The translations under genes were made by a program, and so were the position numbers. This document shows positions 1,523 through 63,282 of a stretch of DNA of 64,000 nucleotides, in pieces. A model generated the notes under the pieces. It did not search any database. It had not been told where the DNA came from and saw nothing but the letters and a program-made list of their open reading frames with translations. Numbering within the stretch: the first letter of the stretch is position 1; the number at the start of each line of letters is the position of its first letter. Origin of the DNA: Chondrosia reniformis (taxonomy: Eukaryota > Porifera > Demospongiae > Chondrillida > Chondrillidae); the NCBI GenBank assembly GCA_947172415.1, contig OX359190.1:8866001-8930000 (forward strand), in the 5' to 3' direction.

Positions 1523-4500
1523 ATGGCGAAGAAACTTAGTGGTCAAATCCTTCTGAAGAATCCCGTTGTAGTTAACGTTAAGCAGAGACTCAAAGACTTG
1601 CATATACAAGACTTGATCAGAACTGGGTCATATGGAGCTGTGTATAATGCAACGTTGGATGGCAACCCCGGACCGGTAGTTGTGAAGAAGTTACATCCAG
1701 TTTTATGCGAAGGTGATTGTTAACTACATGCGTTAATGTTGCGTTGTATATTAAAAGGTAATTGTATTCAGCATCACATTGTCAAACTAAGTGTTTCAAA
1801 ATGATACGGCCTTTGATTGAAACGATATCATAGCCGGAAATCAAGTAACGTGGACCGATCTACTATACGAGGTGCTACGAGCAAATTACCAACGAATCCG
1901 TACGTATCATCTTACCTCCCATCTTACAGGAAGTAGTCGCTATAGGTTATCTTATAATGTATTAAATGATGGGCTAGCCGGCCTTGCATTCTGTGATCAC
2001 ATGCATGTATTGGTCTATAGGTATTGTTTTGGATAGATTTCACCAGGAGGCAGAGCTATTGAAAACGTTTAACCATGAGAATATAATCAAATGCTACGGT
2101 AAGTCATGAATATTCAGTTGATAATGGCTAAATTGTCCATATGTTTTCACTGTGTATGGACATTATGTATATATAATCACTCATAGTTATATATACAATG
2201 AATTAAGGGAGTTATATAATTGTGCAGAGCCTGTGTAAAGGCCATGATAAGTAATATTCAGTGGAATGTAATGCCAAACCAGTCAAGTGATCGCAGTCTA
2301 ATCTTGGCTGGGGACCAAAATCCTATTAAATTGACAACCAGTGATCGCCTTCCAGTCATCCAAGATAGAAAAAGACCACAGACAGCTGTTTCACCCTCAT
2401 TTGGGCTCGTCAGTGTGGTACACTTCAACAATGGTGAGCTGGATGACTGTCTTCACTTATTAATCCACCACAAGTGAACCAACAACCAAGATTAGGCTGT
2501 GATCCTTAATTGGCTGGTTTGGTGTAATATATACATTCCAGTGAATATTGTCATCATATACATATACTGTACATAACAATGCATACGTTTGTGACATTTT
2601 ATCATAGATTTTAAAGAGGAGTCATCATAAAATTTTATTTGATACAGTTATTAATACAGTCATGTAAATGCTGTATTTAATAAACTTAGTGTTTCATCTA
2701 TATTAGAGGTTTTAACAGAAAGAAGTGAAAATGCTCTTGAAATTCCACTATTGGTTATGGAGAAGATGGATGAATCATTGAGAGATTTTATTCACAGAAG
2801 AAAGAGTAAAGGTCAATTTCCAAGCTTGCATGACCAGGTCTTCATCTCTTACCAAATTGCCCGTGGGCTGCAGTACCTTCACACATTTAGAAAAGAACCA
2901 CTTGCTCATCGAGATCTCAGTGACAACAACATCTTGCTAAGTGAGGATGGGAAGATTGTCAAGATTTGTGATTTTGGACAGTCTCGGTTCTGTAACCCTG
3001 GACAGATGACCCAGGCACCTGGTACACTTGCATTCATGCCAACAGAGGCTACCACTGAGGGATATGACCTCAGCATTGACATCTTCTCCTTGGGGGTATT
3101 GATGCTTGAGATAAGTACACTGAAAGCACCTGATCCTGACTTATCTACTAAAGCTGACAAGCAAAATTTGGATCAACTCGAGAGAAGAAAGAATGATTTG
3201 AGCTTACTGCCAGATAGCCATCCACTGAAGCCTCTAATCCTTTGGTGTCTGAGTGAGAGAAAGGACAGAAGACCATATAGCAATGCTGTTTGTCAACTGC
3301 TTCAGTATTTACAGTTTACGGTAAATGCAGTATTGATCTGAAAACGTCACCACACCAATGTATTTATACACTTATTTTAAAGGTTAAAAAGCAGGAAAGA
3401 ATTGATGAACTGCAGAAAGAAGTAGAATTGAGGCTACTACATGAAACTAACGCAACAGAGAAGTATAAGGTACGTATATAGGAATTAGAGATTTGAATGG
3501 AACATGTCAAGCGCGCAGCATGCTTATGATAAGGGCAATAAAATGATCAAAATCATGATTTTATAATTTTTGTAGGAAAAATATGAGGCACTTTACAGTG
3601 ACATGAAAATCTTAAAACAGCAAAACAGACTTCTTGAGGTACAAAATGTGGTATATATATCAACTCGCTGAAGGAACTTTACTACCCATGAACTGGATTC
3701 AATAGATATTAATTTTTAAGCTATCACCATATCAGTAGTAGTGCCATATTTAGAAGATTCTTCAAGGAATGAGGGAGGGAAATAGTGATTCCATGTGGCC
3801 AGAGGTAATATGAAAGTTAGTTCCAAAATTCCAAGTAGATGGCAAGATTAAAGCAAGGCCCATCCCCCCTAGCTAAATGCACCTCAGTGTAGCACAATTC
3901 AAATCAGAGGTCTATGTGATATTCTTAAATACACTATGATAAAGTAAAATGTGAGCTAAGAGAGAAAGTGTTAAATGAGTACTGTGTGATATACATGTAA
4001 TAAATGATAACGATATGAATCAGTATATAATTTAACTAGATTTTCTGGGTTCAATTTCCCACAATTGTATTTATATAAAATGTAGTTTGATTTTTACTGT
4101 GGTTGTTCATATTTTTTAACAATCTGTCAAACTTAATAAGGAGAAATGGGGAGAAGACAATGAAGAAGATATACAGGAGGAGGATGAAGAAGATGATCAT
4201 CAGTACGATGATGTAGTAGCTGTTCTTCCCAAAAAATATGGTTCATTACCCCCAAAGTCCAACCTACCTCAAAATGTAGGAACAACATATCTCAGTTCAA
4301 TTGAAAACTCTGTGAGCTCTAGAGAACCCTCGTACTCAAGTATGCATTACTACAGAGGACATAGAAGGAAGAGTACATTAAATACTTTATCAATCGGTCT
4401 AGTAGGAATACTCTGCGATAAAAAGGTAATTGGAACAAAATAATTTATGTAAATACAGGAAAACCTTCTAAACTGAACATGCCCCTGTATGAGGATCAAG

Positions 4501-11557: not shown

Positions 11558-11566
11558 TATAAATAG
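11558..11566 (+). promoter_or_regulatory. TATA box of GC-rich transcript, locus 1
   Basis: TATAAATAG, 25 bases before the conserved TTCTTTGGCC. The same motif with the same spacing precedes the homologous segments at 50352-50360 (minus) and 63485-63493 (minus), which supports a real core promoter. Confidence 0.6.
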
Positions 11567-12378
11567 ACCCTAGCAAATTTCATTCTTTGGCCTTCGGGCC
11601 CCACTCCGTTCCAGCGCCGGAGTATACGGTTCGCCAGCCTCCGGGAATTTGGTGCGACAACCATGGCTTGGAGTACGGTCATGGGACCATGTGCTGCTGA
11701 AGGATCTGAGGTTTCTCTGAGGGGGATGGTCTTCTCCAATATGGCCTAGGATCCGGGGTTGTTCCTCCCTACAAACTCGCCTTTGTGCGTTTGTTCTCCC
11801 AAAGATCGAGGCTGATGGTCTGGAAGCAGTGCGTGGGACCAGTACCCACCGACTCGGCGAAGAGAAGCTCTGACCGGAGTCCCTGTTTTAGGCAGCCCGT
11901 TTTAAGGTAATTGCATTGCATACACTTGAATTTGGTTGTTCAGGCATTTTACTTGCATTGGTTCTCAGCAATTGTTGGAATTCGGGATATTATGTGTTAG
12001 CTGTTAAAAAATATGTATATTTTAAGGGTATGTATAGAATTTTTGCAAAGGCATTTTTTGGGCATTTAGCAAGATGGTATTTTTGTTGCATTTAGCATTT
12101 TAGTATATTAGACTTTTTGTAGCATTCAGCAAGATTGGCATTTTTGTTGCATTTAGCATTTTAGTATATTAGACTTCTTGTAGCATTCAGCAAGATTAAT
12201 TGGCTTTTTGTGTTGTAAGAAAATATTACTGACTTTGAATGGAATATTTTATATTCTGAATTTAAATAACATTCTTTGAACAAATCAAATTGATGTATAG
12301 CAGAGTAAAAATTGAAAAACTTAACTGAAAGAAACCCACTGTTAAAAATACAAATTCAGAACCAAAAAATCAATTCAA

Positions 12379-12750
12379 TTGATTAACTTCAGAACAGAAT
12401 TTCAACTTCAGAACAGAATTTCAACTTCAGAACAGAATTTCAACTTCAGAACAGAATTTCAACTTCAGAACAGAATTTCAACTTCAGAACAGAATTTCAA
12501 CTTCAGAACAGAATTTCAACTTCAGAACAGAATTTCAACTTCAGAACAGAATTTCAACTTCAGAATTTCAACTTCAGAATTTCAACTTCAGAATTTCAAC
12601 TTCAGAATTTCAACTTCAGAATTTCAACTTCAGAATTTCAACTTCAGAATTTCAACTTCAGAAATTTCAAACAGAATTTCAACTTCAGAAATTTCAAACA
12701 GAATTTCAACTTCAGAATTTCAACTTCAGAATTTCAAACAGAAAGATACA
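12379..12750 (+). repeat. TTCAGAATTTCAAC satellite
   Basis: A 19-bp unit (AACTTCAGAACAGAATTTC) repeated about ten times passes into a 14-bp unit (AACTTCAGAATTTC). The 145-codon frame across it is repeat-encoded. It lies inside the long intron of the locus 1 transcript. Confidence 0.9.
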
Positions 12751-14240
12751 TCAAACAACCGATCTTTAAATTTGAAGGTTTGTCATGTTTATATGAAAAT
12801 TATTCAGTTGTATTAATATATTTCTATACATTCTACAGGTTCTGCAAGTTTTACATTTTCCATGGCAACGTTTTGGACTCTTGACTTATTTGAGCTGGAT
12901 GTCAATCTTCTGTGGATTTGCAACTTTCAACTGGCTGCCCCTATTCCATTTTTAGACTTGCCACTGAGCTGGCAGTCTCTGGTCTGTTTTTTGATTTGTC
13001 ATTTTGAAGTACAATTTGATTTGCATGCCACTTGAGATGGCCTTTTGTTTTGTATTTTGATTTGCCACTTTAAGCTGGCTGTCTTGCGCTGTATTATTGA
13101 ATTACCCTTTTGAGGAGGTTGTTAATTATTATAGTAAACTCGAGACACTCAAGATTTGCATTTTGCATTAGCAAGATTGGCATTTTGCATTACGCTCAGC
13201 AAGATTTGCATTTGGCATATACGTACTCAGCATGCAAGATTCGCATTTGGCATTATGTTAGCAAGATTGGCATGTTTGCATTATTTGCATTTAAGGATCA
13301 GCATATTCTCAAGATTGCATGGCATGTTTGATTTCGGAAGAAAATGTTGACTAATTTCATCTTATTAATTTACATTCTATGTAACTTATTTCGACTACGA
13401 GTAAAAATTGCAAAACGTAACCGAACTGTTACTAGTAAATTCAGAACCAGGAATACAGGAATACTTTGGAACAGAGTAACAGTAACTTCAGAAACAGTAA
13501 CTTCAACTTAATCCCAGTAGCAAGAGTAAAAATTGTAGTAAAAATTGCAACTTAACCGAAAAATTAAATCTTAATTGTAACTTCAGAACTAGGAATACTT
13601 TGGAACAGAGTATATATGTAACAGTAACTTTAGACACAGTAACTTCAACTTAATCCCAGTAGCAAGAGTAAAAATTGCAAAACTTAACCAAAAATTAAAT
13701 CTTAACTGTAAAGATAGTAAATTCAGAACGAGTAACTTCAGAACAGGAATACTTCAGAACAGGAATACTTCAGAACAGAATAACTTCAGAACTTCAGAAT
13801 CATAATTTCAGAACTTCAGAACTTCAGAAACAGATAACTTCAGAACTTCAGATTCAGAACTTCAGAACTTCAGAAACAGATAACTTCAGAACTTCAGATT
13901 CAGAACTTCAGAAACATAATTTCAGAACTTCAGAACTTCAGAAACAGATAACTTCAGAACTTCAGAACTTCAGAAACAGTAACTTCAGAAACACAAGCAA
14001 CCAGATCTTTGTCTTTTGAAGGTTTGACATGTTTATATGTACGTACAATATTCAGTTGTATTTTATTATTTTTTACACATTTTACAGGTTCTGCAAACTT
14101 TACATTTATATTGCAATCTTTAGAACAGAAAGATACTTCACAAGCAACCAAATCTTCAAGGTTTAACATGTTTACATGTACATTATTCAGTTGTATTACA
14201 GTATTTTCCTATACCTTCTACAGGCACTGTTTACATTTGC
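12735..14240 (+). repeat. Three copies of an exon/intron-like module
   Basis: Intron-like segments 12778-12838, 14022-14087 and 14161-14223 (61-66 bp) each begin GTTTGNCATG or GTTTAACATG, contain ATTCAGTTGTATT and end in TACAG. Each is preceded by a similar exon-like stretch (AGATACNTCA... then AATCTT/GATCTTT and AAG) and two are followed by GTTCTGCAA. They may be extra exons of the locus 1 transcript. Confidence 0.55.
13735..14000 (+). repeat. ACTTCAGAAC tandem repeat
   Basis: Irregular tandem array of AACTTCAGAACTTCAGA with interspersed GATAACTTCAG and CATAATTTCAG units. It is related to the 12379-12750 array. Confidence 0.85.
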
Positions 14241-14293
14241 AGTTCTGGACTCTCTCAGACTTTCATCTACTTTAACTCGTCATTTTGTGCTTG

Positions 14294-14510
14294 GCAGTTC
14301 CTGAATAGTTACTTTGTCTCTGGTTGTCTCTGGTCTAATTTGTATTCTGGATGTCCCTGGCCTATGAGCTTGGCAGTCCCTGAATGGTTACTTTGTACTG
14401 GTTGTCTCTGGTCTAATTTGTATTCTGGATGTCCCTGGTCTATGAACTTGGCAGTTCCTAGCTGAATGGTTACTTTGTCTGGTTGTCTCTGATCTAATTT
14501 GTATTTGTCA
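14294..14510 (+). repeat. About 79-bp tandem repeat, 2.7 copies
   Basis: Units contain TTGGCAGTCCCTGAATGGTT, then GGTTGTCTCTGGTCTAATTT and GTATTCTGGATGTCCCTGG. The minus-strand open frame here is repeat-derived. Confidence 0.8.
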
Positions 14511-15475
14511 TTTATCATTTGAGCTGGCTGTCCTACATGTCCTATATATTTTCACTTGCCATTTTGAGTTGGCTAGTCTGTCTTTTAATTACTGTCCCAT
14601 TTTTACTGACTTAGGTGTCTCTGGTTTATTATAATTTAGGGCTCTTTATATAAATAGCATTACATCCATGGCCTAATTAGACTTGCCATTTTGAACTACC
14701 TATCATCTTTTAATCCATACTTTAGAGTTTGATTGTCCCTGCATACTCTATTTGTGACTGTCAATAGAGCCATCATTGCATGGTCTGTTTTGATCTGACT
14801 GTCTGATATATGTTAATTTCTACATTAGTTTGATAATTTCTACGTTAGTTTGAGCAAGTTATCGATATCAGCTGTTCAAGGCCTAATTATTGTGTACTTG
14901 TCATCTTGAGCTAGCTGTTCCTGGTCTGGTATAACTTGTCCCTAGCCAAATTGTAGCATTTTAAACCTAAATATAACTTATGTGCATGCTACCTAGCTGT
15001 TGTTCTTCTGTTGTCAAGTGTTTGTATTCACATTGTTGCTGTTGTTCTTCTGTTGTCAAGTGTTTGTATATTCACATTGTTATATATACTTGCAATGCAC
15101 ATGCTTCTAACATTGTTTAGTATGATATATATCCCTTTCATTCCTTTATATAGTGGTCCCTATCTCACACGAAGGCAGGTCTGATTTGAGGTAAAGTGAC
15201 GCGCTGTTCTCCGGTGCTACGCCGGCGTGTCATGATTCTCAATGAAGAAGGTTTGAGGTCCGCCAGGGTCGGGTCATTGTACACGTAGCATTTGTACCTT
15301 GATCTAGTAACTGGTCACAGGGCGGCTAGGTACGCCGAGCCGTTCCCGCGCATCTTCCTCCCCTCCTAGCTGAGAACGTGGAGCACTACTGGGCGGAGTG
15401 GGGGGCACGATGTACTCCCACCTCCGCGTGGTGTGCCCCGGATTCAACTTTTTCATGGTTGGAAGTTGATACAAA

Positions 15476-17942
15476 GAGGAGTACAAACTAAAAAGAAAAG
15501 ACGAATTATTCTAAAGTGAGTTCAGATTCAGATTTGTGTCAGATTTGTTGAATTTTAAGCATGTTAATTTCTCTCTTACTGCAGTTGATCAAAAAGTCTC
15601 TAAATGCTGCAATTTATCCACTCATATCTCAAGGCTAATTGAAACTTGCATAGCACATAGCATTACACCAAGTGAAGAGATGCTAGTCTCTTTTTGTAGT
15701 AAGTTGCCAATCATTTGCAAAACAGGAATCCTTTAACTTTGTGGTAGTCTCCACGTACTCTACATACTGGAAATAGGTCTAATATTTGTCACTCTAGCTT
15801 CTATATTACTAATCTTGTTTATGAGGCCATTTTTAATAGCCTTTAACTGTCTGTTTAGGTTAGTTGTACCTAGTCTAGATTTGTTCTTCTGAGAGATGGC
15901 TGTTCTGGTTAATTCACTACATACTAGCTGTGCCTTGGCCTATACCTAGATTTCCCTTTCACTTTTAAGTTCCAATTTTATTTTCAGTTGTCAAATTTGA
16001 ATTTAATTTGAATTTAATTGTGTCTGTGTATTATTAGGTGTATCCAAATCTACGTACATGGCCTAATATTTTGCAGACTTGTCTTTTGAGCTGGCATTCT
16101 CCTGGTACATATGTATATTTTGACAGTCATTTTATTCAATGTCCGCAATAATTTTGAAGCTTAGTTGTTAGAACTGGAATTTTGTGATGCACATCTTTGT
16201 ATATGACATTTAGTTTTTTGTATGTATTTATGTATGCTTTGTATGTATGTATGTAAATTTGATTATTCTATTCTGTGCAGGATTGGTTTCAAAGTGGCTG
16301 AAAATGGTTGGATGCACTGATTTTGGTTTCGGGTTAATTTGAAGATGTCAGATTGTGTTTCCAAGTTTTATAGACACTGTGACATTAATTTTGAGTATAA
16401 ACATTCTTATTTTAATTTTATTATATCAAATAGCAGCCTTGTTAATTATCTGCTATATTTCATGTCTTGTAAGTGAAAGTACATAAGTATCATTACATGG
16501 TTACAGACCATATTATAAATACACTCACTTACTAGTCACTAAGAAGGATTTTCCATTATAAAATATACATAAAGTAGTCTTACACAATTTGTGTTTTACT
16601 ACTTTTTTGTTCATTGTGTCATCCCTGCCCCTCCCTACTGTAGGTGTGGTTTGGAGATCACATGTTCTCGTGTTCTACAATGGGTATATACATACAGCAT
16701 TCCATTGCTGAAGATTGTCAAAGAGTACCTGGACTGCATTGATACACTCCACAGATAATTGGAATGCATCCAAATGCTGACATTACGATCTGAAACTAGT
16801 CAGTTTTGCACCATACACAGATTTCTAGGCTGGGTATGACTTTAAACACTGTATGATGCAAACTATGTTTCTATCTTAAGTTTATTGTTTGTATCATGAG
16901 TATTTTATTATATTATACTATTAATACTGTTGAATAAACCCTTTATAATTGCTCTGAAAAGTTGCTTCAATTAAATACAAGAGTTAGCTATTTGGTTGTT
17001 TTTGATAGATAGCCAGCAATTTAATTTTATAACTGCCACTTATTATTAATTCATTTTGAATGTACTATATATAATTATACAACTCATTTAAGCCCACATT
17101 ATACATTTTAGGAGCATTTAATTAATAACTTATGTAATACGTACAGACAATTAAATTAAAGAATTCCTTATCAATAATATACAACTCTATTCTAATTCAT
17201 TTTTATCACATGTGGTGACTTCCCGAATGATTGCCACTTATCATCATAGATATCCTAACAAACCTCCAGCAACACTGTTATCTATTTATAGCACTTTTTT
17301 GGTCTCATCACCATATCTAGATTATTTTACTGCACATTTTCTATAAATAGGTATGAATAATTACTGACTTCAACTACAATTGCAACTGACCACACTATCA
17401 GACAGCTGACACTGGTGATGAGCTAATGTTAATACATAAACTTCATGGTACAAGAACTATTATCATTCATGATAACGTAGGCTTTTATCTATATATATAT
17501 TCAATATAACACATGGTTTGCATATAAATTTCCAATAGGTTTTCTATAGTCCTATGGCCTTTTATATGCAAACTTTGTCCTCCGTTTTCTAAGAAACGGA
17601 GGCCTAAATCAAAAATCCCTTAATTTAAAATGAGTTTTATACCCTAAACTTTATGATGATATGCCCATTTTGTTTCTAGGTCCTTTCTTGGAGCCATATG
17701 AATTATTTAATTATTTATTTATATTATATTATATTATATTATATTAGATTACCTTAGTATATTGTAACTTGCACTGTATATACAATACAAATGACTGTAT
17801 TAGCCAGTAAAAATTAATCATGTGCAGGTGGATATGTACCAGTGATTTACTATAAAAACCGACAATATTCATACAAGCAAGCAGTTTTATAATTGGTCAA
17901 CATCACTTTATTAAAGGACAGCTCAGAAGAAGGAGTTTTGAA
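15476..17942. other. AT-rich intergenic region
   Basis: I see scattered AT-rich sequence with no supported exons. A short ATATT tandem run lies near 17720-17745. Small open frames (for example 15536-15736) show no splice context or homology I recognise. Confidence 0.5.
17851..17860 (+). promoter_or_regulatory. TATA box of CUB/collagen gene
   Basis: TATAAAAACC, about 90 bp before the ATG at 17943. Confidence 0.5.
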
Positions 17943-31452: not shown

Positions 31453-34227
31453 TTATGTAGTTGTACGTATACTATTATAAATTCTGTCAGCCAAATTTCG
31501 CTTCTCCAGTTTCCAAATCATGGTCAAAAGCTTCTCCCAAGAAGCATCTCTACACTGTTCAAGCCACGCCTGCAGTACAGCGAGGCACCGAGACTGAGTT
31601 GTGCCTCCTTGACCAACCTTCTGATTGTCGACTTCAGTTCTCATTCCCAATCCATAACCCAGTAAATCCCAAATGGAAGTCATATCTGGTACAAACTCTA
31701 CCAACGCTTCTATAGTCAGTAGATGAGATCCTTCAGGTACTGCAGACAAGAGGTGGAAACATGAACATGGAACACATTCACTCTGATGGAATATAAGTAC
31801 AGTGGACCTTCGCATATTTGCAGCTATCCGTCCACGGCACCATACGTATATCAGGAATTGAATTTGTGTGTCTAAAGAATGTGAGATTACTAGTTTTGCC
31901 CACATCTGCAATCTTTTTGATTTGGCACCTTAACAATTCTGTATACTAGTCCGTACACCTTAACAATTCTGTATACTAGTCCGTACACCTTAGCAATTCT
32001 GTATACTAGTCCGTACACCTTAGCAATTCTGTATACTAGTCCGTACACCTTAGCAATTCTGTATACTAGTCCATACACCTTAGCAATTCTGTATACTAGT
32101 CCGTACACCTTAGCAATTCTGTATACTAGTCCGTACACCTTAGCAATTCTGTATACTAGTCCGTACACCTTAGCAATTCTGTATACTAGTCCATACACCT
32201 TAGCAATTCTGTATACTAGTCCGTACACCTTAGCAATTCTGTATACTAGTCCGTACACCTTAGCAATTCTGTATACTAGTCCGTACACCTTAGCAATTCT
32301 GTATACGTACTAGTCCGTACACCTTAGCAATTCTGTATACTAGTCCGTACACCTTAGCAATTCTGTATACTAGTCCGTACACCTTTTGATCCCAGATATA
32401 GTAATATATGGTAACAGACATTGAACCACTCAGTAATGATGACATCATAGGACTCTGGCTTAACCCCACCCACTCGGGATACCTGAGAATTAAAATTACG
32501 TTGCCTGTTACAGCTCTTCAGATAATAATGTTATATGCCAACAGTCTGTATACCATAGAAGTGGTATCAAAGGTTAAGGTCACTATTACCTCTTTTAGTC
32601 GAAATAAACCAGATTTACCAGAATCTAATGATTTGACATACGTACGTACGTACATGCATGTAATTATGCATGTAATTATGCATGTAGACATTCTGCTTTA
32701 CAATTGACTGGTAAAAGGTTTCTACACTTTAGCTTAGAGTGTCAACTTACCCTGATAACTAGGCATTGGCTGTTCAGAAAAACTATTGTTGAGCCCATTA
32801 ATCCTGCTACTGCTTGCACCAGAAGTAGCTGAATAGCTTAGCCTGTGGTTCTCATAAGCATCTATTCTTTGTAAGAGACTATTCTTCTCAGTTTGGTGTT
32901 CTTCACATCTTTTTCTTAAATCTCCACATTCCTTCATCAGCTCATCACATTGCTTGCTACTAGCTTCTAAACTTTGCTTAAATTCATCTCTCTCCATTTT
33001 CATTTTGTCTCTTTCCTTTTGTAAGTTATTCTTTTCCTTTTTCAGCTTATCGCACTCCAGTTGCTCGTTTTCTTTCTCGAGCTCAAGTCTACAGGATCTT
33101 TTCCTTTCCTCCGTGAGAGACTCTGTCAGCTGCCTACATATATATGACAGATAACAACTAAACCACAAGTATTTAAAATAATCAAGAACTGAAACATATT
33201 GGAAGAAATTGACTACAGAAATTGAAACTGTTGTAAAATTAGTAAACAAATAGATTTCTTGTCTTTTATGCTGTATTTTTTAATAAAGTTGAAAAGGTAC
33301 TTCTGAAACATATTCATCAAACAACAACATAATTATACTATACTACATATATTTAGACAGGAGATCAGTTGGTACCTGTTCTCCTCTGTCAAAGTGCTCA
33401 GTTCAGAAACACATCCTTCTAGTTGATGTAGTGCTGTTTTAAATGTATCACGAAGCATCACAAAAGAGTTGGTAGGTGAGAGAGTGCTTGATGTCAATGA
33501 ACCACCTAAGCAAGGAAGTGGACATTTAAAACTCTTCTTGAGTAGTTACAGAAACCTTGTCACATTGTAGGTGAACACAACCAATCAGCAAGTATTATTT
33601 AATTCAGTAACCCTTAGCTACAGGTCAAATGATGGAAAGGATGGAGAATACAGAACCTTTTATAAACAGCACACATGTACGTATGTATGTGTGTGTGTGT
33701 GTGTGTGTATATTAGTGTAACAAACCTCCAGTGATTATACAATATGTTAGAAATCGAGCATTGGTGATAATAATGACATAAAACTAAATAAAAGATCTAG
33801 GGTTATGCCAAATTGATAGTACTGCCTTATATACTTGTGCCAAACCATTTAACTATTCTGAGTGTACAGACTGCACAAGTTGACACTGTATGGTGTACAC
33901 TTGACGATATTACCTGATGACCGAGGAGAGGTGCCTGCTCCCAGAGATGTGGAGGGTGTAGAGTGCAAGCTGCTGTTCTCATTTCGGACAACGCCAGGAG
34001 GGAAAGACAGTGTTGGTCTAGAGGGAGTACTGTTAAGGAAGGTGGGGCTATGTCCTGATGAAACAGAGGTGCCTTGGTGAAGAGTTGGTTGGCTTAGTGA
34101 ATGGTTAAATTTTGGCTAGAAATCGCAAAGAAGAAAAAATATAAAGAAATATACGTTTGTTTTGTGCGATGAAACTTACTATTTTTGCTGGAATGACTAG
34201 TTCACGATTCGTTTTTCGACCTGCCAT
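31453..34227 (-). CDS. Coiled-coil / death-domain protein
   Basis: Five exons: 34227-34180, 34115-33914, 33505-33376, 33133-32751 and 31739-31453, total 1050 bases, exactly 349 codons plus stop, all phases matching. The short N-terminus is basic (MAGRKTNRELVIPAKI). A Ser/Thr/Pro-rich stretch follows, then a long coiled coil in exon 4 (LEKENEQLECDKLKKEKNN), then a death-domain-like bundle in the last exon with EALVEFVPDM near the start and SWEKLLTMIWKLE near the end. The death-domain exon shares phase and sequence with the gene at the left edge. It is likely an intracellular adaptor; there is no signal peptide or catalytic domain. The last intron carries a 30-bp minisatellite. An imperfect hairpin lies 64 bp upstream of the ATG. 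Confidence 0.85.
31931..32383. repeat. 30-bp minisatellite, about 15 copies
   Basis: Unit CCTTAGCAATTCTGTATACT plus AGTCCGTACA, nearly identical throughout, with a 4-bp expansion (ACGT) in one unit near 32306. It lies in the last intron of the death-domain gene; the open frame running through it is repeat-encoded because 30 is a multiple of three. Confidence 0.95.
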
Positions 34228-45800: not shown

Positions 45801-48800
45801 TACATATTGCTGAATAATATGTTAATACAGAATTATTCTGAAGAAAAGGAAAGATTAAAAAGTGCAATTGAAGAACTTCAAAAAGAATTAGAAGTTAAGA
45901 CTGCAATGGAAGAACAATTTACAATTCAAGTAAAGTTTATTTAACTTAATAAGATAATAGTTTATGAATAGTAATAATTAACGTGTAATATACGTAGCTT
46001 CAAACTTATGAGCAAGACTTTCAACAAGAGAGGAAAGATAGAGAGAATGCTCATGGAAAGATAGCCGACCTGGAAGAGAAGTATAGGAAAGAGTTAAAGG
46101 AGGTATCTACTGATAGAGATGAGAATCTGGCTCAATTGACAGGATTGAAAGAGCAATTAGTACATCAGAAAAATGAGGTATAGACTCTACAGTACACGGT
46201 AGAATCTAGATGTTATAATATTTTAACAATTTGAAGTGTGCTATATCTGTTCTCCACTGTACCTATGCATTTCCTACGCTGTTCTAAAGGAAGGCCGGGT
46301 CTGAAGCCCGCTAGACCCCCTGTATCCACCTGTGATTGTATAGCCAGAAATGTTGGTAGGAAGAATGTTTGCTGGATTGCCTGACTTGTCGTGTTTGGTA
46401 GATTCTATTTCCCTGATCACTGATTTTATAATGATATTCATGACCCATATGACAAACCCATGCATTCAACTCTATTACAATCATAGCCGAGGTATGCAAA
46501 CAGAATGCAGTTTGAAGTTATTAATGTCCTCCAGGATTCTTCCGTAGTAGCAAAGCCATATGAAGAAAATTTGTGCCACTAATGTGTTTCTAATGGATTA
46601 TGATTATGTAATAACTAAGATGTCATATACGTATATGTTGTATATACTCCTAGTATTTAATTTTGGTTGAGGATATGTTGGGATTGGCCCCTCGAAATGA
46701 ATTCGCTGCTAAAATCCGGCAAAGTAAATGTATCTTTATCTGAAAGTTGTGTATGTCCACATGGCAATACACATGCTTTACTTACAACTTTCTGTGCATA
46801 ATACGTGTGTTAACTATTTCCTTTATTTACTTCTTATGCCATGTGTATAGCTTCATAGAATGAACAGAGAGCTTGAGCATATGAGAGATACCTCAACTGG
46901 TTATGAACAGAAACTGATTAAGCAAGAAGAACAGTTCATGAAGAGGGAGAAGACACTGGTACAACAAAAGGAACGTCTGGATCAAGAAGTAAAGAAATCT
47001 AAGACAGAAATTCAACAACTAATGGGAACAAATGAAGAATACTCCAAAAAACAGAGAAACTTAAAGCAATTTGAAACAGCCTACCTGTAAGATGTTTAGT
47101 TATTTGTTATTATTCCATTAACTCTTACTTTAGTACATATGTACACACAGTATATACATAATACGTATATTAATACATATTAATTGTAAGTTATATAAAA
47201 TGTTGACATTTGATTTAGTAATCTGGCAGCCATAAGTTTTTTTTATTTTTAATTAAACATATCTCTGCTACATTTTAGTATTCAGGTTTACAGACTAAAC
47301 GCTTGAAACTTTTGTGTACATTTGCAATTAGACACTAAAATCTTGTCTAAGTACAAAGCATTGTTGTGATTATAAGTTGAAATATATATTTATGAAATTC
47401 ACACAAATGTAGGGACAACTATATTGTTTTAGGTTTCACACCGTATTTATATTGTAATTACTGTAATCTCACTATTCTATACTCAGGGCAATGACTCAAA
47501 ATGCTCATCAGCTCGAACAGCAGGTAGAAGCTTTGCAGAAGACCCAACATGCTATCAGTCAGCAAGTTCGTGATCTACAGGCCGAAAAGGCAGCTCTTGA
47601 GAGTAGGAATAAAGAGCTCAAACAACTAACTGATCATGTGACTGCTGAAAATGAACGACTGAACAACCAAGTACAGTACGTGTTTCAGCAGAATAGGGTA
47701 AGAATAAGAGTACATTGCCTCATTTGTCATATGAGACTAATGAAGTTCTTTCTTTTAATTCTTTTAGAGTCTTGCATCAGAAGTGAAACATTTAAAGGAA
47801 AATAATCAGGTATGCATGCACAGTTAAGTTAATAGCATTTAACTGATTATTATTTTCTTTGTACAGTCTCTTGAGGAGGTCACAGATCGAATGAGAAGAT
47901 CTGTCACAAGATTTCCAAACAGTGAAGAACAGGCTTGTCTGTCACTGCCAACTTCCAGTAAAAATTTAGTTCAGTCCCTAGTAACCTCAAGAGGAAGAGG
48001 AGCAGACCAGTTGATGGGCCATCAAGATGGTCAGTTTGATGACAATCTATTCAAAGAATCAGAGAAGGATAGTCCTCCCAGTTCCACAGTTGATAAGGCA
48101 CATGGACAAGCTTCAGGTGGACCTGTTCAAGCCCAAATGGATCGTGAAAGACCATCTGGCCAAATTGAAGACAATAGGAAATATCAACCCGAGTTTCAGC
48201 AACCTGTAAAGGGTAGTACCTATCCTACAGAAAGAGGACCTCACCAAGATCCACCAGCTGCAAGATATTCAGGTCAGCAACCTTCACCTGAAGGTACTAC
48301 CTATCCTACAGAAAGAGGACCTCACCGAGACTCACCAGCAGCAAGATATTCAGATCAGCAACCTTCACCTGCACAAGGTACTACCTATCCTGCAGAAAGA
48401 GGACCTCACCGAGATCCACCAGCTGCAAGATATTCAGGTCAGCAACCTCTGCCAAGGACATCTGGAAGGGGACGTGGGGAAGCCAGTGTCATTCAAGGAA
48501 CACACTACCCACACGGCACTGCTTATAATCAGCAAGCAGGAAGCACATATGCCGTGGAAGCAGCTAACAAGCCACATCGTCAGCACAGTTCTGAACCTCT
48601 CCCCTCTTCTCTTTCAGAGAGGTCAAGTGATCCTAGCCTGCCGGAACCTTATGGGAGACCTGGTCAATTTTCCTTAAACCCATCTATCAAGAGTGTTAAT
48701 GAAAGCACTCTCTTTGCACCGAATGAGAAGTACATTGGAGAAGACATCAATCATGAAATCCAACACGAGGCAAAGAGAGCGCAGAAAGATCGAGGAGAGA

Positions 48801-48937
48801 TCCTCCACGCTGACAGTGAAACTGATGAACAAGACTGGCCGTTTGATCCTAACCTTACCTGCCCTAAGTGTAAAGTGGTCTTTAGAAGAGGTCAAATTCG
48901 TGAATATCGTTATCATGTGGATGAATGTGAAGTTTAA
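39859..48937 (+). CDS. Copy A: long coiled-coil protein with C-terminal C2HC zinc finger
   Basis: Exons include 40824-41040, 41375-41610, 42089-42522, 42597-42666, 43106-44400, 44499-44665, 45202-45338, 45649-45743, 45832-45929, 46000-46176, 46850-47088, 47486-47697, 47768-47808 and 47866-48937. A short first exon at 39859-39870 (MSSN, then GTAAGT) fits the phase; a further small exon near 40385-40446 is possible. The protein is almost entirely coiled coil, then a Pro/Gln/Arg-rich region with about three repeats of TTYPTERGPHRDSPAARYSD type. The end is CPKCKVVFRRGQIREYRYHV then DECEV: Cys-x2-Cys ... His-x3-Cys. That finger after a long coiled coil resembles NEMO, optineurin and TAX1BP1, which bind ubiquitin; orthology is unproved. 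Two tRNA-derived SINEs sit in its introns. Copies B and C repeat its 3' half. Confidence 0.8.
40226..40330 (+). repeat. Dispersed repeat, second copy
   Basis: Matches 37388-37560 as described there; it lies in the presumed first intron of copy A. Confidence 0.6.
40568..40655 (+). mobile_element. tRNA-derived SINE head
   Basis: TGGCAGAGCACTGATGG fits polymerase III box A and GGTTCAATTCC is an exact box B (GGTTCRANNCC) about 30 bases on. No tRNA cloverleaf or anticodon arm can be folded, so it is a SINE and not a tRNA gene. Confidence 0.65.
41692..41775 (-). mobile_element. tRNA-derived SINE head (inverted)
   Basis: On the minus strand, TGGCAGAGCACTGGTGG (box A) and GGTTCTATTCCCAG (box B), followed by AAAGTATTCTT, shared with the copy at 8328-8400. 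It lies in an intron of copy A. Confidence 0.65.
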
Positions 48938-49614
48938 TTTGAACTTACACTACGGCTAATGAAACTCCAATGATGTAATTAGCATGCATAAAAATAATTA
49001 TATTGAACATTAAAGCATTTTTGCTAAACTAATAACTTGTTAATAGAGTAAGGATTTCAAGAACAACTTGTTTTCATCTAGATCACATTTCATACTTATA
49101 TCTTGGTTGTTAAATTGGCATTTGAATTTAAATGTAATAGTGATTCATATTGATCAAGGGTGCATACGTTAGGGTGAAGAGAAAAAAGAAAAAAGGACAC
49201 TGTGTATGATGTGGACTTGCCCACTTTTTCTTTTTTTACATTTCTTCCTTTTTCATTTTCCTCTTTTTTCCTTTTTTTCTTTTTCGGTTTACATTTTTTA
49301 TAATACTTGTTATGCAATAATTTACGAGAGTATACTGAATGCTTACATAGATGTAGCTCTGCATTCTGTATTTGCGGAGCCGGGTTATATTTTAATGTAT
49401 AACTTATGATACCAATTTCATTATGAATTCGTCATTATCGACGATTGTATATAACCACTTCACAATGATCATTTTTGTTAGACAATTCTGAAATATACAT
49501 GTATACATGGTATTAAATTAAGGAAATGTTCAAACATTGTAGTTCTTAAACAAGTTCTTCATGGTTGCTGTTTCTTCTCCTTTTGAATGTTACTGGAATG
49601 GTGCTGCAGTACTT
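48938..49614. other. 3' flank of copy A
   Basis: 48938-49116 is repeated after copy C (63097-63280). The rest is AT-rich with a T/C-rich run at 49220-49285; no supported exon. Confidence 0.5.
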
Positions 49615-50330
49615 CTTTTTGCATCACTTTACTGAGTGTAAAGGTGATCCCAGGGCACACCACGTGGAGGTAGAAGTACTTCGTGCCCCAAATGGCCTCC
49701 GGTTTCTCAACTCTGTTTGACACTTCCACTACTTGCGTCGTAAGAGAAGTTGCACGGGAGCGATCCGGCGTACCTGACCGACCTCTGACCAGTTACTAGT
49801 CTTGCCCTGCTACGCTACGAACAGAACAAGCCCGACCCTGGCGGACCACAAACTCCCACCAATGAGAATCATCATGTGCACACAACGTAGCTTGGGAACA
49901 CTGCACACAGACTTTAGCTCATTGGGATCGGCCAGGCGCTTTAGAGTAGGGACCCATCAGTTCAATGAAACTATAAGAAAAGAAATAAAAATACATGATA
50001 TACGATGAAATATTACATTGATGCAAATTCCTTCCAAACCAACCTGAAGCTGCAGCCTACAACAGGGGTTCCTGACCGACTACGTAGTGGCACTGGACCC
50101 ACGCTCCTCCAGGTACGGGCCGTATAGTGAGAATCCGCAAGTGCCAATTTAACACACAAGCAGGATTAATAGTGAGATACATCTCCAGGCACTAACCCAT
50201 AGCAGAGAGACCACCCCACTATACGAACACCGATGACCCTTTGTCGCATGGTACCATGGTCGTGCTCCTACCACGGTTTTCGCATCGATCCACACCAAAG
50301 TAGACCTCCAGAGTTGATAGCCCGGAGGCC
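49615..50330 (-). ncRNA. GC-rich spliced non-coding transcript candidate, locus 2
   Basis: Minus-strand homologue of 11583-15475. Exon 1 runs about 50330-50044 and ends CTTCAG|GTTGGT; the intron is 50043-49971 (73 bp, ending TTTCTTTTCTTATAG); exon 2 runs 49970 to about 49615. Shared blocks in exon 2 include GGTCCGCCAGGGTCGGG and CTAGTAACTGGTCA. Two terminal stem-loops occupy 49689-49652 and 49648-49623. In the second, both arms differ from locus 1 yet still pair, over ten base pairs with one bulge. AATAAATAG (50360-50352) occupies the TATA position. An 83-codon frame starts upstream (50470) and stops at 50219, and it does not continue into exon 2, so I favour a non-coding reading. Confidence 0.5.
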
Positions 50331-50360
50331 AAAGACTGAAAATTTCCTCGCCTATTTATT

Positions 50361-52512
50361 AGAAATGGTCGGCGGGAAACATCTTGAACTTGGCGGAAAG
50401 TCGTGAAACCAAAATTTTGTTTATTGTTTTCGATGTCATGTTCAAGAACAATAGAGAACATGCAGAACATGACCCGGCCTATTCAGCAAGTTGTTAAAGT
50501 TAATGAGTTTCGACTAGAAATCAATCATGGCTATCCAGCGAAGCAAATCATAAAAATTGTACAGTGACCCCATGAATAGAAATGCTTAGTTATATTCCTA
50601 TAAACAAGCTATCAATTTCAATGAACCTGTATTATTTCAGCAGTAATCAAACAGATGCACATGCTCTTGCGAGTGCATGAATTGACGTGTCAAGCGGCAT
50701 GTTTCATGCACAATTAACAGAGGACATTATTGAGGATACAGATGTAATTGTTATTTTAAACCATAACTTAATTTAAATAAAGAAAGGCTTTAATTTATGC
50801 TTATGCACTTTCGTGAATATCTATTCTGTGCACATACGTATATATAGCTAGCTAAATCACAATTTTGCACCCTCTGCAGACGGCTTACATGCAGACTTGC
50901 GAGAATATGTTTTACTTGTTCAAAATATATATTATTTGCACTTCCTTTAAAACGTGAGAGCTGACTAAGTATATGATAATGCTCTAATTGACTTTTATAT
51001 AGTTTGCTCAATCAATTTGTGAATCCAAAATGGCCGTTGCTACTAGTAAGCTCTAGTTTAGCGTTGTACATGCCCTAAACTGCACTGATTGGTAAGTTAT
51101 CTTGTTTAGAGAATCAGACCAACTGTAGTCTATAGGCGCTTTAAATGAAGTCTATAATGTTTTTTTCTTTATCACATGCAGAAATCAATGTCAGTAACCT
51201 AGCAACATGTCTAATTAATAAGAAGGACTGAGTGGAAGGGAATCATTAAAGTTATTGGATAAAGCCATTCAGGTAGGAAAAGATAAAGTATTGGATCAAG
51301 GGGAATATTTGCATGGAATCAGCAGTGAGTATAGCAACTGTAAAGTACCTGGACTACATCTGTTCAATGGGACCACCAGATTAAGCATGTTTACCACTCC
51401 CTAGTAGCTAATAACATACAGCTAACGTAGTTTAGTTGGGTGAGGTGTGTAGTACATGCTTAGAAGGTTCTCTGTAGATAGTTTGCCTTGTTATTTGGCT
51501 ATGAAAGCAATCCCTTTGATCAAGACGATTAAAATTCTTTGGCCTTGACATTAGTTAGTAGGTAAATTGCAAAAAATCTTTTTTCTGTAGCTACTTAGAT
51601 AATCTGTTTGTTTTTACTCTTCTTGTGTATCCATGGTAACTAGATATAGGAATACTTCAAATGAGCTAGATTAAATTTTTCCAGCTGGTATTCCTGATTT
51701 AGGGTTCATCCAGCTCCTAGTAGCTATGGCTACACTCATTTAGGGGAGTGGTTACAGTGCTGGCACATCTGAGGCTGCATACAGAACTTGGGGCCAGAGA
51801 TTGTACATATTCTTTGCCTCTGTATAGTTACTAATTAGCCTTATATAGAAAAGTCTCCATAGCACCCAGGTTCCCTGGCAACCATTCAATTGGAAATAAA
51901 GTAATCAATTGCTATTACTACAAAAAATGACATAACTGTTAAACAATTACTTTTTAAATGAATTTACTTTAGTTTCCTCTTGAAGGAATATTCACATCCT
52001 TTTCACTGCTTGTTTGTACAGCAGCACTTCTGTGTGTATTTCAAAGGGCAAGCTACCCATTTTCCCAAGTTATGAAAATAACTGACAAAGGATGCTATAA
52101 TAACCTCTGCTTATCAATTTAGCAGCTATCAAAAGCACCAGTTAGGCGACCTTGTCTTATGTAGGTGGAGCTGCTTAGACTTGATCCTCCAAAGCATCTA
52201 TGGATCACTGACATGACCTGGCTTAGCAAACTGTCACAGTTTTTACACTTTCTTGTGCACACTGACTGTTATACAGTAATTTACATATACATATACGTAT
52301 GTACGTACATACATATGTATACACAAAAATGTTCTAAATGAAGCTGGTTTTCTTGTAAGTGTTCTAAATGTGTTTTAAATTAGGGTTATATACTTATTAC
52401 AGTTACTTGTCATGTCAATAGTTATATTAGTTAAACTTCACGTCAATAGTTATATTAGTTAAACTTCACGTCAATAGTTATATTAGTTAATTAAACTTCA
52501 CGTCAATAGTTA
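50361..52512. other. Intergenic region; part is duplicated after copy C
   Basis: 50150-50890 recurs nearly unchanged at 63280-64000 (window end). The rest, to the 3' end of copy B, is AT-rich; near 51770 GCATACAGAACTTGGGGCCA matches a stretch near 7455. No supported exon. Confidence 0.55.
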
Positions 52513-52520
52513 TATTAGTT
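52413..52520. repeat. 28-bp tandem repeat at the broken end of copy B
   Basis: Four units of GTCAATAGTTATATTAGTTA plus AACTTCAC. The array abuts the point where copy B stops matching copy A and supplies the new stop codon. Confidence 0.85.
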
Positions 52521-55500
52521 AGGATCACTGGACCTCTCTGAAAGAGGAGAGGGGTCAGATTCAGAACTGTGCTGCCGATATGGCTTGTTAGCTGCTTCCA
52601 TGGCATGTGTGCTTCCTACTTGCTGATAATAAGCAGTGCTGTGCAGGTAGTGTGTTCCTTGAATGACACTGGCTTCCCCACGTCCCCTTCCAGATATTCT
52701 TGGCAGAGGTTGCTGACCTGAATATCTTGCAGCTGGTGGATCTCGGTGAGGTCCTCTTTCTGCAGGATAGGTAGCACCTTGTGCAGGTGAAGGTTGCTGA
52801 TCTGAATATCTTGCTGCTGGTGAGTCTCGGTGAGGTCCTCTTTCTGTAGGATAGGTGGTACCTTCAGGTGGAGGGTGCTGACCTGAATATCTTGCAGCTG
52901 GTGGATCTTGGTGAGGTGCTTTTTCTCTAGGATAGGTAGTACCCTTTGAAGGTGGAGGTTGCTGGAACTCGGGTTGATATTTTCTATTGTCTTCAATTTG
53001 GCCAGATGGTCTTTCACGATCCATTTGGGCTTGAACAGGTCCACCTGAAGCTTGTCCATGCGCCTTATCAACTGTGGAACCGGGAGGACTATCCTTCTCT
53101 GATTCTTTGAATAGATTGTCATCAAACTGACCATCTTGATGGCCCATCAACTGGTCTGCTCCTCTTCCTCTTGAAGTTACTACGGACTGAACTAAATTTT
53201 TACTGGAAGCTGGCAGTGACAGACAATCCTGTTCTTCACTGTTTGGAAATCTTGTGACAGATTTTCCCATTCGATTTGTGACCTCCTCAAGAGACTGTAC
53301 AAAGAGAAAAATAATCAGTTAAACGCTAATGAATCATTTCACTTAACTGTGCATGCATACCTGATTATTTTCCTTTAAATGTTTCACTTCTGATGCAAGA
53401 CTCTAAAAGAATTAAAAGAAAGAACTTCGTTAGTCTCATATGACAAATGAGGCAATGTACTCTTATTCTTACCCTATTCTGCTGAAGCACGTACTGTACT
53501 TGGTTGTTCAGTCGTTCATTTTCAGCAGTCACATGATCAGTTAGCTGTTTGAGTTCTTTATTCCTACTCTCAAGAGCTGCCTTTTCGGCCTGTAGATCAC
53601 GAACTTGCTGACTGATAGCATGCTGGGTCTTCTGTAAAGCTTCTACCTGCTGTTCGAGCTGATAAGCATTTTGAGCTGATGCCCTGAGGATAGAAGGAGT
53701 GAGATTACAGTAATTACAATTACAGACTGTGAAACCTAAAACAATATAGTTGTCCTTACATTTGTGTAAATTTCATATATACTGTATATTTAAATTATTT
53801 AACTTTTAATCACTAAAGGAAGAGTTAACAATGCTTTGTGCTTAGACAAGATTTTAGTATCTAACAGCAAATGTACACAGAAGTTTCATGCGTTTAGTCT
53901 GTAAATTGTAAAATTAAAATGTAACAGAGATATGCTTAATTAAAAACAGTACATATGTACTAAAGTAAGAGTTAATGGAATAATAACAAGTAACTGAACA
54001 TCTTACAGGTAGTCTACTTCAAATTGCTTTAGGTTTCTCTGTTTTTTGGAGTATTCTTCATTGGTTCTCAAAAGTTGTTGTATTTCTGTCTTAGATTTCT
54101 TTACTTCTTGTTCCAGACATTCCTTTTGTTGTACCAGTGTGTTCTCCCTCTTCTTGAACTGTTCCTCTTGTTTACTACTCAGTTTCTGTTCATAACCAGT
54201 TGAGGTACCTTTCATAGGCTCAAGTTCTCTAGTCATCCTATGAAGCTACGTACATATATACATTACAGCATACAAAGGGAATAAGAATTTTATAAAAGGA
54301 AATTGCTAAAGAATCTTATATTGTAAACTATAGTATACATATGCAAGCATGTACATACATACGTTCATATGTATTACAGTCTCTATAGGTAATTAACTAT
54401 CATACATTTACACTAAATTAAAAAGTTCATTAGTCCTTATCTTATGTATATTACGAAATTAACATGTTCAAGATCAAAGCAAAAAGTTAAAGCTTCATTA
54501 ATGATCTTCATAATGTACGTTATAAACGGGCTCCACTGTATTTAAGCAATTAATTTAATATATATCTCTAAATGAAGCGAATCCAGCTTCTCCCATTCCC
54601 AAATCCTGGATATGCCCCTGTATACGTTTATATGAACTACATATTTAGCAGATGCATAAATACTGTACAACAGAAAATAACATACATACAACATAGATTT
54701 TACCATGTACTGTAGAGTCTATACCTCATTTTCATGATGTACTAATTGCTCTTTCAATTCTGTTAATTGAGCTACTTTCTCATCTCTATCAGTAGATACC
54801 TCCGCTAACTCTTTCCTATGCTTCTCTTCCAGGTCGGCTATCTTTCTATGAACATTCTCTCTATCTTTCCTCTCTTGTTGAAAGTCTTGCTCAAAAGTTT
54901 GAAGCTATGTGCATGTTTATTATTACTACTCATAAACCATTATCTTATTAAGTTAAATAAACTTTACTTGAATTTTGAATTGTTCTTCCATTGCAGTCTT
55001 AACTTGTAATTCTTTTTGAAGATCCTGAATTACACTTTTTAATCTTTCTTTTTCTTCAGAATAGTTCTGTATTAAACATTACTATTACATATCTCTACTT
55101 CCTGTTGTAAACAATACACTCACCACAATAATTTGTCTCAGTCCAACCTCAAGAGACTTCTTAGCCTCAATCTCTTCAAGCAGAAGAATAATTCTAGCCT
55201 ATTAAGAAGAAATGTGAATATAAAAAGTACTAGTTATTATGGAAATATCTAAATCATACTCAATTAATTTTAGATATGCCATGCAGCTTACTTTTAAGAC
55301 TTTTACTCGATCAGTAACTGAACCAACATTATATTCCTTCATGCACTGAGTCATGTGCTCAACAAGCACAGCACTTTTAACTCTCTCAGCTGCTATATCT
55401 TTAAGACACTCTTTGATAATTGGCTGGAAATAATCCTTTTCTTTTCTTGCAAACTCATTTAAAAGATGGACTCTACGTTCAAATTCACTTACAGACACAT

Positions 55501-61284: not shown

Positions 61285-61286
61285 TT

Positions 61287-63096: not shown

Positions 63097-63282
63097 TTTG
63101 AACTTACACTACGGCTAATGAAACTCCAATGATGTAATTAGCATGCATAAAAATAATTATACTGTATTGAACATTTAAACATTTTTGCTAAACTAATAAC
63201 TTGTTAATAGAGTAAGGATTTCAAGAACAACTTATTTTCATCTAGATCACATTTCATACTTATATCTTGGTTGTTAAATTTA

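Follow-up and report, generated by a model that had tools for sequence, protein, structure and literature searches.

Hepatitis delta virus (HDV)-like ribozymes are scattered in animal genomes, where their roles are mostly unclear. They are modeled in Rfam as RF00094, RF02682 (HDV-F-prausnitzii) and RF01787 (drz-agam-1), and have in common a nested double pseudoknot, P1-P2-P3-P1.1-P4, with a 7-bp P1, a CC in loop L3 together with GG after P1, and a catalytic-C position in J4/2; this J4/2 cytosine has a catalytic role. One of them, the CPEB3 ribozyme, is a single-copy sequence. In the sections of PMC8256844 that bear on the subject, HDV-like ribozymes are described as cleaving at their own 5' side, those of the R2, RTE and L1Tc retrotransposons as freeing the 5' end of the element, and that of CPEB3 as lying in an animal RNA polymerase II (Pol II) transcript, within an intron of a protein gene. 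Metazoan retrozymes, another multi-copy class of non-coding, structured, ribozyme-bearing RNA, are described in the corresponding part of PMC7761336 as hammerhead-based, tandem, circular and without an evident promoter. Here we describe two predicted non-coding RNA genes in a 64,000-nucleotide stretch of the kidney sponge Chondrosia reniformis (contig OX359190.1, positions 8,866,001 to 8,930,000, or C2:8866001-8930000; the whole stretch is hereafter called the window), both of which end in an HDV-like ribozyme with predicted self-cleavage. The assembly, as given in the portion of PMC12181767 used here, comprises 117.37 Mb in 14 chromosomes and a mitochondrial genome, and is accompanied by a public RNA run (ERR10177766); the genome as searched had 117,379,552 bases in 15 contigs.

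The two window genes

The genes at 11584-15484(+) and 50335-49609(-) represent two subfamilies of one dispersed RNA-gene family, and are called long and short below after the length of their introns. Their features, together with those of a truncated third copy, are as follows.

11558-11565, +: TATA box TATAAATA of the long-intron copy, found as TATAAATA in 8/8 long exon-1 loci
11584-11906, +: exon 1 of the long-intron copy, 323 nt, GC 0.57
11589-11600, +: 5' hairpin GGCC-UUCG-GGCC of long exon 1
11601-11608 with 15394-15401, +: end-joining helix of the long copy, CCACTCCG with CGGAGTGG
11907-15153, +: long intron GTAATT...TATAG, 3247 bp, GC 0.33, AT-rich, poorly conserved, with abundant AACTTCAGAAC-type repeats
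15154-15401, +: exon 2 of the long-intron copy, 248 nt to the predicted cleavage site
15323-15342, +: hairpin CGGCT-AGGTACGCCG-AGCCG of long exon 2
15402-15484, +: HDV-like ribozyme of the long copy, predicted cleavage between 15401 and 15402
50399-50392 and 50379-50371, -: two motifs upstream of the short-intron copy, TTTCCGCC and TTTCCCGCC, which we take to be E2F-like
50361-50353, -: TATA-like box TAATAAATA of the short-intron copy (TATA-like in 38/38 short copies by a loose pattern)
50335-50044, -: exon 1 of the short-intron copy, 292 nt
50330-50319, -: 5' hairpin GGCC-UCCG-GGCU of short exon 1
50316-50309 with 49715-49708, -: end-joining helix of the short copy, CAACTCTG with CAGAGTTG
50043-49971, -: short intron GTTGGT...TATAG, 73 bp, GC 0.26
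49970-49690, -: exon 2 of the short-intron copy, 281 nt to the predicted cleavage site
49689-49609, -: HDV-like ribozyme of the short copy, predicted cleavage between 49690 and 49689
63277-63468, -: third copy, truncated, retaining only the promoter and ~190 nt from the start of exon 1, with 98.4% identity to the copy at 50335

Re-reading of both genes recovered the GC-rich blocks, introns, TATA-like boxes and start blocks that an earlier note on this DNA had reported; the start block TCTTTGGCC begins at 11584(+) and at 50335(-). The intron position that the note considered shared between the genes (GT...AG, 3247 bp in one and 73 bp in the other) is indeed so at the donors, which lie at homologous points (CCCTGTTTTAGGC... 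and CCCTGTTGTAGGC...), with the acceptors about 14 nt apart. The conserved block is also present, except that it extends to 15484 rather than 15475 in the long copy, and to 49609 rather than 49615 in the short one. Since a ribozyme occupies the last ~80 nt, the RNAs themselves are predicted to stop short of this, at 15401 and 49690. The predicted spliced and cleaved RNAs are 571 and 573 nt in length, the two copies being 54.1% identical over 545 aligned positions, with many gaps. The note's proposal, namely an RNA gene that is structured, spliced and outside the recognised families, is supported, with splicing predicted, by the conservation of exons relative to introns and flanks, by compensated helices, by the lack of a frame open through exon 2 in either copy, by the similar intron ends of 38 short copies (see below for how these were chosen), and by a search of the window with 4227 Rfam families, none of which reached its gathering score. 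What it had overlooked is the size of the family, several hundred loci, and the HDV-like ribozyme at the 3' end; in E-value mode the HDV-like models matched both 3' ends.

HDV-like ribozymes at the 3' ends

The short copy was matched at 49608-49691(-) by RF00094 (28.1 bits, E 0.089), RF02682 (26.2 bits, E 0.017) and RF01787 (20.8 bits), and the long copy at 15400-15484(+) by RF02682 (22.5 bits, E 0.057) and RF01787 (22.3 bits, E 0.04), the gathering scores of these three models being 50, 44 and 37, respectively. The HDV-like models also matched 11 of 12 further loci at E<=1 (L081 was missed), none of the 12 reaching a gathering score. A tRNA search of the window found nothing, and no Rfam hammerhead was found in the window at gathering score, nor in 49400-50500 and 15100-15600 at E<=5.

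Folded by hand, the short ribozyme comprises P1 GGGGCAC:GTGCCCT, P2 GTACTTC:GAAGTAC, P3 ACC:GGT, L3 TCCACGT, P1.1 CC:GG, P4 ATCA...TGAT and a J4/2 with CAAA, and the long one P1 GGGGCAC:GTGCCCC, P2 GTACTCC:GGAGTAC, P3 ACC:GGT and, again, a J4/2 with CAAA. These elements were followed in a scan of 60 loci. Because the scan was anchored on ACCTCC-YGTGGT, its construction partly accounts for P3 and for the CC of L3, and P2' was chosen as the best candidate within 40 positions; P1 (7/7), P2 (7/7), P3 (3/3), P1.1 and the catalytic-C position were intact in 60/60. Among 42 distinct ribozyme sequences the C-N-A-A of J4/2 is invariant (C69, A71 and A72 in 42/42), and 99.1% of cells pair, against 32-51.2% when the strands are slid. 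Cells changed on both sides numbered 8 against 1.5 in shuffles, with 0/500 shuffles as high.

Once the motif had been spotted by eye, a general descriptor of its double pseudoknot was written; this matched both strands of the 64-kb window only at 15402/15403(+) and 49689/49688(-), in two registers each, and had no match in 15 dinucleotide shuffles of one strand. Over 95 loci (273 kb, both strands) it returned 80 clusters, all of them family cores and none elsewhere; these covered 30/30 long exon-2 loci, 30/30 short loci, 14/16 of a further 16-locus set, 4/6 loci of a fourth type and 0/5 of a third family, both described below. The misses were L075, which was cut by the fetched interval; L076, which is 5'-truncated and has a broken P1 pair; the fourth-type loci L090 and L095; and the third family, because its J1/2 exceeds the allowed length. 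A histone-type 3' end, suggested by the terminal hairpin and a purine box, was considered and dropped because that hairpin fits P4 of the ribozyme.

Fold of the RNA body

Helices were first picked from folds or by eye; their occurrence was then scored in 46 spliced copies, of which 38 are short and 8 long. Eight members of the 16-locus set (L075-L077, L079, L081-L084) did not enter this count, being truncated, rearranged, or of the long type and lacking exon 1. A UNCG loop caps the 5' hairpin in 45/46 copies (UUCG, UCCG or UACG; CACG in the remaining one). The helix that joins the two ends of the RNA is paired at 8/8 positions in 45/46, as CAACTCTG:CAGAGTTG in 37 short copies and as CCACTCCG:CGGAGTGG in the 8 long ones, one short copy being unmatched. 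The hairpin CGGYY-AGGTACGCCG-RRCCG was found in 45/46 and is fully paired in 44 of these 45, with stems CGGTC:GACCG, CGGTC:GATCG, CAGTC:GACTG, CGGCT:AGCCG and rarer forms. Finally, a 9-bp helix that spans the junction by pairing exon 1 with exon 2 is intact in 37/38 short copies; it was not detected in any of the 8 long copies. The minimum free energies of three short RNAs gave z-scores of -4.1 to -4.3 (100 shuffles each).

A dispersed family with conserved exons

Genome searches with long exon 1, long exon 2 and the short-intron copy each returned at least 40 scored matches, own place included, at 83-100%, 96-100% and 89-100% identity, from 47, 458 and 502 first-look candidates, respectively. 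Sequence patterns gave 271 exact places for the short type, 380 for the exon-2 motif and 478 for the ribozyme core (the latter two at <=3 mismatches, with at least 100 exact places each), the reversed-pattern control being 0 in every case; the resemblance between the two loci, on which the earlier note had built, therefore goes beyond chance. The long type, judged by its letters, made up 14/100 among the ribozyme-core places listed. At 543 places genome-wide the core ACCTCCNYGTGGT-N7-GG is matched exactly (2 in the reversed control). Of the first 100 of these, on C1 and C2, 82 are short or long, 8 belong to the third family, 8 have a fourth type of P1' (GCATCCT), and 2 are of other types. By this sequence census the family consists of several hundred loci. 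The exon-2 motif pattern had 0 places in a viral contig collection and 0 in a genome contig collection. Among the 100 ribozyme-core places listed, only one pair of cores lay within 1 kb; it belongs to L084, where the cores at C1:9708843 and C1:9709612 are 769 bp apart and one of them is without an RNA body and the 5' strand of P1.

Conservation was compared as mean pairwise identity with gaps counted, over 30 loci for the short type, 8 for the exon-1 side of the long type and 30 for its exon-2 side. Upstream of the short type, identity rises from 38.9% at -400..-300 through 57.2% at -300..-100 to 76.3% at -100..0; it is 92.8% in exon 1, 69.2% in the intron, 94.2% in exon 2 and 90.2% in the ribozyme, and falls downstream to 47.2% at 0..+100 and 34.5% at +100..+300. 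The corresponding values for the long type are 41.0% at -400..-300, 93.6% at -100..0 and 98.9% in exon 1, then 58.7% dropping to 38.2% within the first 500 bp of the intron, 39-51% at the 3' part of the intron, 98.1% in exon 2 and 98.4% in the ribozyme, followed by 62.3% downstream and 47.3% at +100..+300. Sequence comparison thus indicates that copies on different chromosomes keep their exons and proximal promoter alike as the surroundings drift. In 37 distinct short RNAs, all four gametes were seen at 829/1431 pairs of biallelic sites, a pattern which suggests recombination or gene conversion among copies, and which we read so without taking it as proof.

The intron has the hallmarks of a spliceosomal one in the short copies, where conserved GT...AG sites enclose an intron of 69% identity against 93-94% in the exons. 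The 38 short copies, which were picked by a pattern that presupposes GT...AG-type ends, have the donor GTTGGT (37/38) or GTTAGT (1/38) and the acceptor TAG (24/38) or CAG (14/38), with introns of 73-116 bp; in most long copies paired by position the intron is ~3-5 kb. An origin of copies as retrocopies was tested with patterns for the two spliced junctions and set aside, no intronless copy being found genome-wide at <=3 mismatches (0 and 0 places).

A TATA-like box precedes all 46 spliced copies, and CCCGCC occurs upstream in 36/38 short and 0/8 long copies. The sequence TGACGTCA, presumably a cAMP response element (CRE)-like site, occurs upstream in 5/38 short and 0/8 long copies; these five (L055, L061, L064, L073 and L080) are short-type loci with a different promoter and exons of the common type.

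In keeping with the earlier view that no frame is conserved, exon 2 and ribozyme together show at least three stops in each of the three frames in both window copies, and no frame is open through exon 2. The longest ATG-initiated open reading frames (ORFs) of the 46 spliced copies encode 27-76 amino acids, and even the commonest, of 50 amino acids at nt 153, occurs in 9/46 only.

Further ribozyme-ended families

Over the genome, RF02682 gave 61 scored places out of 4126 first-look candidates, of which 59/61 were above its cut-off (best 47.3 bits, E 5.6e-6); 8/14 control genomes had a match at E<=10, and 0/14 one above cut-off. These places belong to a third family, which a pattern found at 80 places genome-wide (<=3 mismatches; control 0). 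The five loci read (L085-L089, at C4:8166277, C1:1386531, C1:614504, C2:8794523 and C14:1201568) have TATAAATAG, followed by a GC-rich stretch of ~290-300 nt (two were measured, at 288 and 301 nt) and then by the ribozyme. Apart from the ribozyme core, the sequence is unrelated to the short and long types, and no intron was seen in these five loci. The order TATA-exon-ribozyme and the sharp exon conservation are nevertheless common to 5/5, with identities of 97.4% in the exon and 98.9% in the ribozyme against 23.0% far upstream and 40.6% downstream. RF01787 gave 52 genome matches, the listed places compared being again the third family, and none was over cut-off; 11/14 controls had a match, likewise none over cut-off.

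Six loci of the fourth type (L090-L095, at C2:3.9-5.9 Mb and C1:4.93 Mb) have P1 GGGATGC:GCATCCT and share a ~1.2-kb AT-rich stretch, an acceptor-like ATGCAG, a GC-rich block and a ribozyme at its end; the four ribozymes examined are sub-threshold for RF01787 (22.5-25.6 bits). They likely constitute a further ribozyme-ended family, which may be either a gene or a longer repeat. All 8 listed places of this type lie in chromosome middles.

Proposed mechanism and alternative explanations

Taken together, we propose that these loci are non-coding RNA genes, transcribed by Pol II, in which an HDV-like ribozyme forms the 3' end of the RNA, a reading to which we assign a probability of roughly three in four, with expression, splicing and cleavage all predicted from the genome. 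Transcription would almost certainly be by Pol II rather than Pol III, because of the GT...AG introns and the TTTT runs inside long exon 1. It would be directed by the TATA promoter, in the short type also by GC-box/E2F-like or CRE-like sites, and start at or just before the cUNCGg hairpin. One spliceosomal intron would be removed, of 73-116 bp in the short type or ~3-5 kb in most long copies paired by position; the exons would fold, a helix joining both ends of the ~572-nt RNA; and the 81-83-nt ribozyme right after this end helix would cut at its own 5' side as soon as it is made. A ribozyme placed at the end of a conserved RNA would in this way make the 3' end of that RNA, since HDV-like ribozymes cut at their 5' side. 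The released RNA would lack poly(A) and end in a 2',3'-cyclic phosphate, the ribozyme acting in place of poly(A) or Integrator processing. The copy number and homogeneity of the exons suggest a product needed in quantity, and our guess is a stable structural RNA of a ribonucleoprotein, required in high dose.

Several observations weigh against this proposal. Both window ribozymes score under every Rfam gathering score (28.1 against 50, 26.2 against 44, 22.3 against 37), and all 61 RF02682 places are of the third family, none being short or long type. The covariation in the ribozyme is modest, in that 2/23 pairs changed on both sides, a number matched by 49/500 shuffles; of these two pairs, the P2 change separates the short from the long subfamily. 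A G directly before the cleavage site is unfavourable for HDV ribozymes, and the long type has a G directly before the predicted site. The long RNA (z -1.7) and the third-family RNAs (z -0.9 and -1.4) are not unusually stable. In a joint consensus fold of 12/46 RNAs (9 short and 3 long), double-changed pairs numbered 19 against 18.8 in 30 column shuffles, and the energy was slightly lower only (-71.9 against -61.2 +/- 5.5); because this fold failed its control, structure common to the subfamilies rests on the single counted helices. Lastly, some copies are 5'-truncated or decayed (L076, L077, L079 and L082).

Truncated copies, and the hundreds of dispersed copies on both strands, are also what would be expected of the strongest alternative, namely a selfish, non-autonomous mobile element carrying an HDV-like ribozyme, copied by transposition and producing an RNA without host function. 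Such ribozymes are known from retrotransposons (the relevant part of PMC8256844), and the possible fourth family may lie inside a longer, nearly identical repeat. When transposon edges were sought by all-against-all BLAST and flank alignments, 112/436 short-type pairs were found to begin ~425-350 bp before the gene, and 238/480 long exon-2 pairs to end in one 25-bp bin shortly past the ribozyme, which again counts against genes proper; because of this pile-up of alignment ends, an element edge may exist. However, ~90/436 short pairs are similar for >500 bp upstream and the ends are spread over many other bins, a TATA-like promoter is retained in all 46 spliced copies, and neither spliced junction occurs in the genome at <=3 mismatches. 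Moreover, divergence is far greater in the distal promoter, intron and flanks than in the exons, which fits old loci under selection, or conversion of exons. We regard the mobile element as a serious but distinctly less probable account.

Other explanations fare considerably worse. If the motif were the 5' ribozyme of a non-long terminal repeat retrotransposon of the R2, RTE or L1Tc type, which is a usual genomic setting of HDV-like ribozymes (PMC8256844, in the part cited), it would belong with the sequence downstream and the upstream exons would be unrelated to it. Conservation is the reverse of this, the exons upstream being 93-99% identical and the region at +100..+300 downstream only 34.5% in the short and 47.3% in the long type (30 loci each), and we consider this reading highly improbable. 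A viroid-like or retrozyme-like circular RNA could explain the end-joining helix next to a ribozyme, the 2',3'-cyclic phosphate ends being ligatable. It is very unlikely, though marginally less so, given that the loci read have one ribozyme per unit (L084 excepted), their own TATA promoter and an intron, and that the 769-bp pair is the single close pair of cores among the 100 places listed; metazoan retrozymes, by comparison, are 150-300-bp hammerhead repeats with no evident promoter (PMC7761336, in the part cited). The predicted introns, the TATA boxes and the multiple copies would also suit genes for a family of small proteins, or pseudogenes of such genes. The stopped frames of exon 2 in both window copies, the short ORFs shared by at most 9/46 copies, and the agreement in mature length (571 and 573) despite 54.1% identity with many gaps leave this explanation, too, with a very slim chance.

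Returning to the ribozyme-processed genes, a broader proposition would be that, in this one 117-Mb sponge genome, a whole class of animal Pol II genes has an HDV-like ribozyme as its standard 3'-end maker; the RNAs would be structured, without poly(A) and in many cases spliced, and the ribozyme would constitute a third route to ending Pol II transcripts, next to poly(A) and Integrator/U7 processing. The proposition is based on the 543 exact cores and on the occurrence of four sequence types in the first 100 listed, and we hold it to be evenly balanced. Since one motif ends several unrelated, conserved, high-copy RNA families, its job is directly testable. If it serves abundant RNAs as their 3'-processing device, a ribozyme-based route would be added to Pol II 3'-end formation, and large families of animal non-coding RNA would be revealed that poly(A) RNA sequencing would miss.

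Window surroundings

A segmental duplication relates 46996-50883 to 61283-64000, in pieces that are 86-95% identical. The second copy has lost ~1 kb relative to the first, and because of this deletion only the promoter and the first ~190 nt of the RNA gene are left in it, as the truncated third copy at 63277-63468. Another segment is present in three copies (47246-48635, 52520-53946 and 61283-62607), with ORFs of 348, 251 and 245 amino acids that have no Pfam match, the 348-residue one being rich in proline and glutamine. Elsewhere in the window, fragments of a protein kinase domain (Pfam Pkinase) occur at 2751-3341, 55202-55813 and 56073-56519, and a death-domain ORF at 31453-32385 adjoins an array of ~60-bp repeats. 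Comparison of 20 neighbouring ORF proteins with Pfam gave these kinase and death-domain matches, and no link to the RNA was seen among them.

Comparison with known systems

Among the matches listed in the open-licence PMC literature, at the level of titles and the starts of abstracts, no paper described such ribozyme-ended genes, which does not by itself prove novelty. Sponge R2-like sequences are stated in PMC13188248 not to insert into the R2 site, and the main text of that source is without the word Chondrosia.

Replication-dependent histone genes and small nuclear RNA (snRNA) genes are multi-copy Pol II genes whose RNAs lack poly(A) and receive their 3' ends through the U7 small nuclear ribonucleoprotein or Integrator. 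The Chondrosia genes resemble them in outline, being multi-copy Pol II genes by prediction whose RNAs would lack poly(A), without any claim of membership; they differ in that the 3' end would be formed by a ribozyme, not by the U7 particle or Integrator. From the metazoan retrozymes they are set apart by an HDV-like motif, a TATA box and an intron, although both are multi-copy, non-coding and structured. The CPEB3 ribozyme is similar as an HDV-like ribozyme within an animal Pol II transcript, yet, being intronic, it is no maker of a non-coding RNA end. The R2, RTE and L1Tc ribozymes are likewise genomic, multi-copy and HDV-like; there the 5' end of an element is freed, whereas here the 3' end of an RNA would be made, and no conserved element is seen downstream of the ribozyme, at +100..+300, in either the short or the long type. 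Within the HDV-like group as a whole, then, the sponge ribozymes share the common architecture, the third family with 59/61 scored copies above the RF02682 gathering score and the window copies below all such scores, and they are distinguished by their position at the 3' end of intron-bearing, predicted non-coding RNA genes with promoters of their own, conserved together with what lies upstream and not with what lies downstream.

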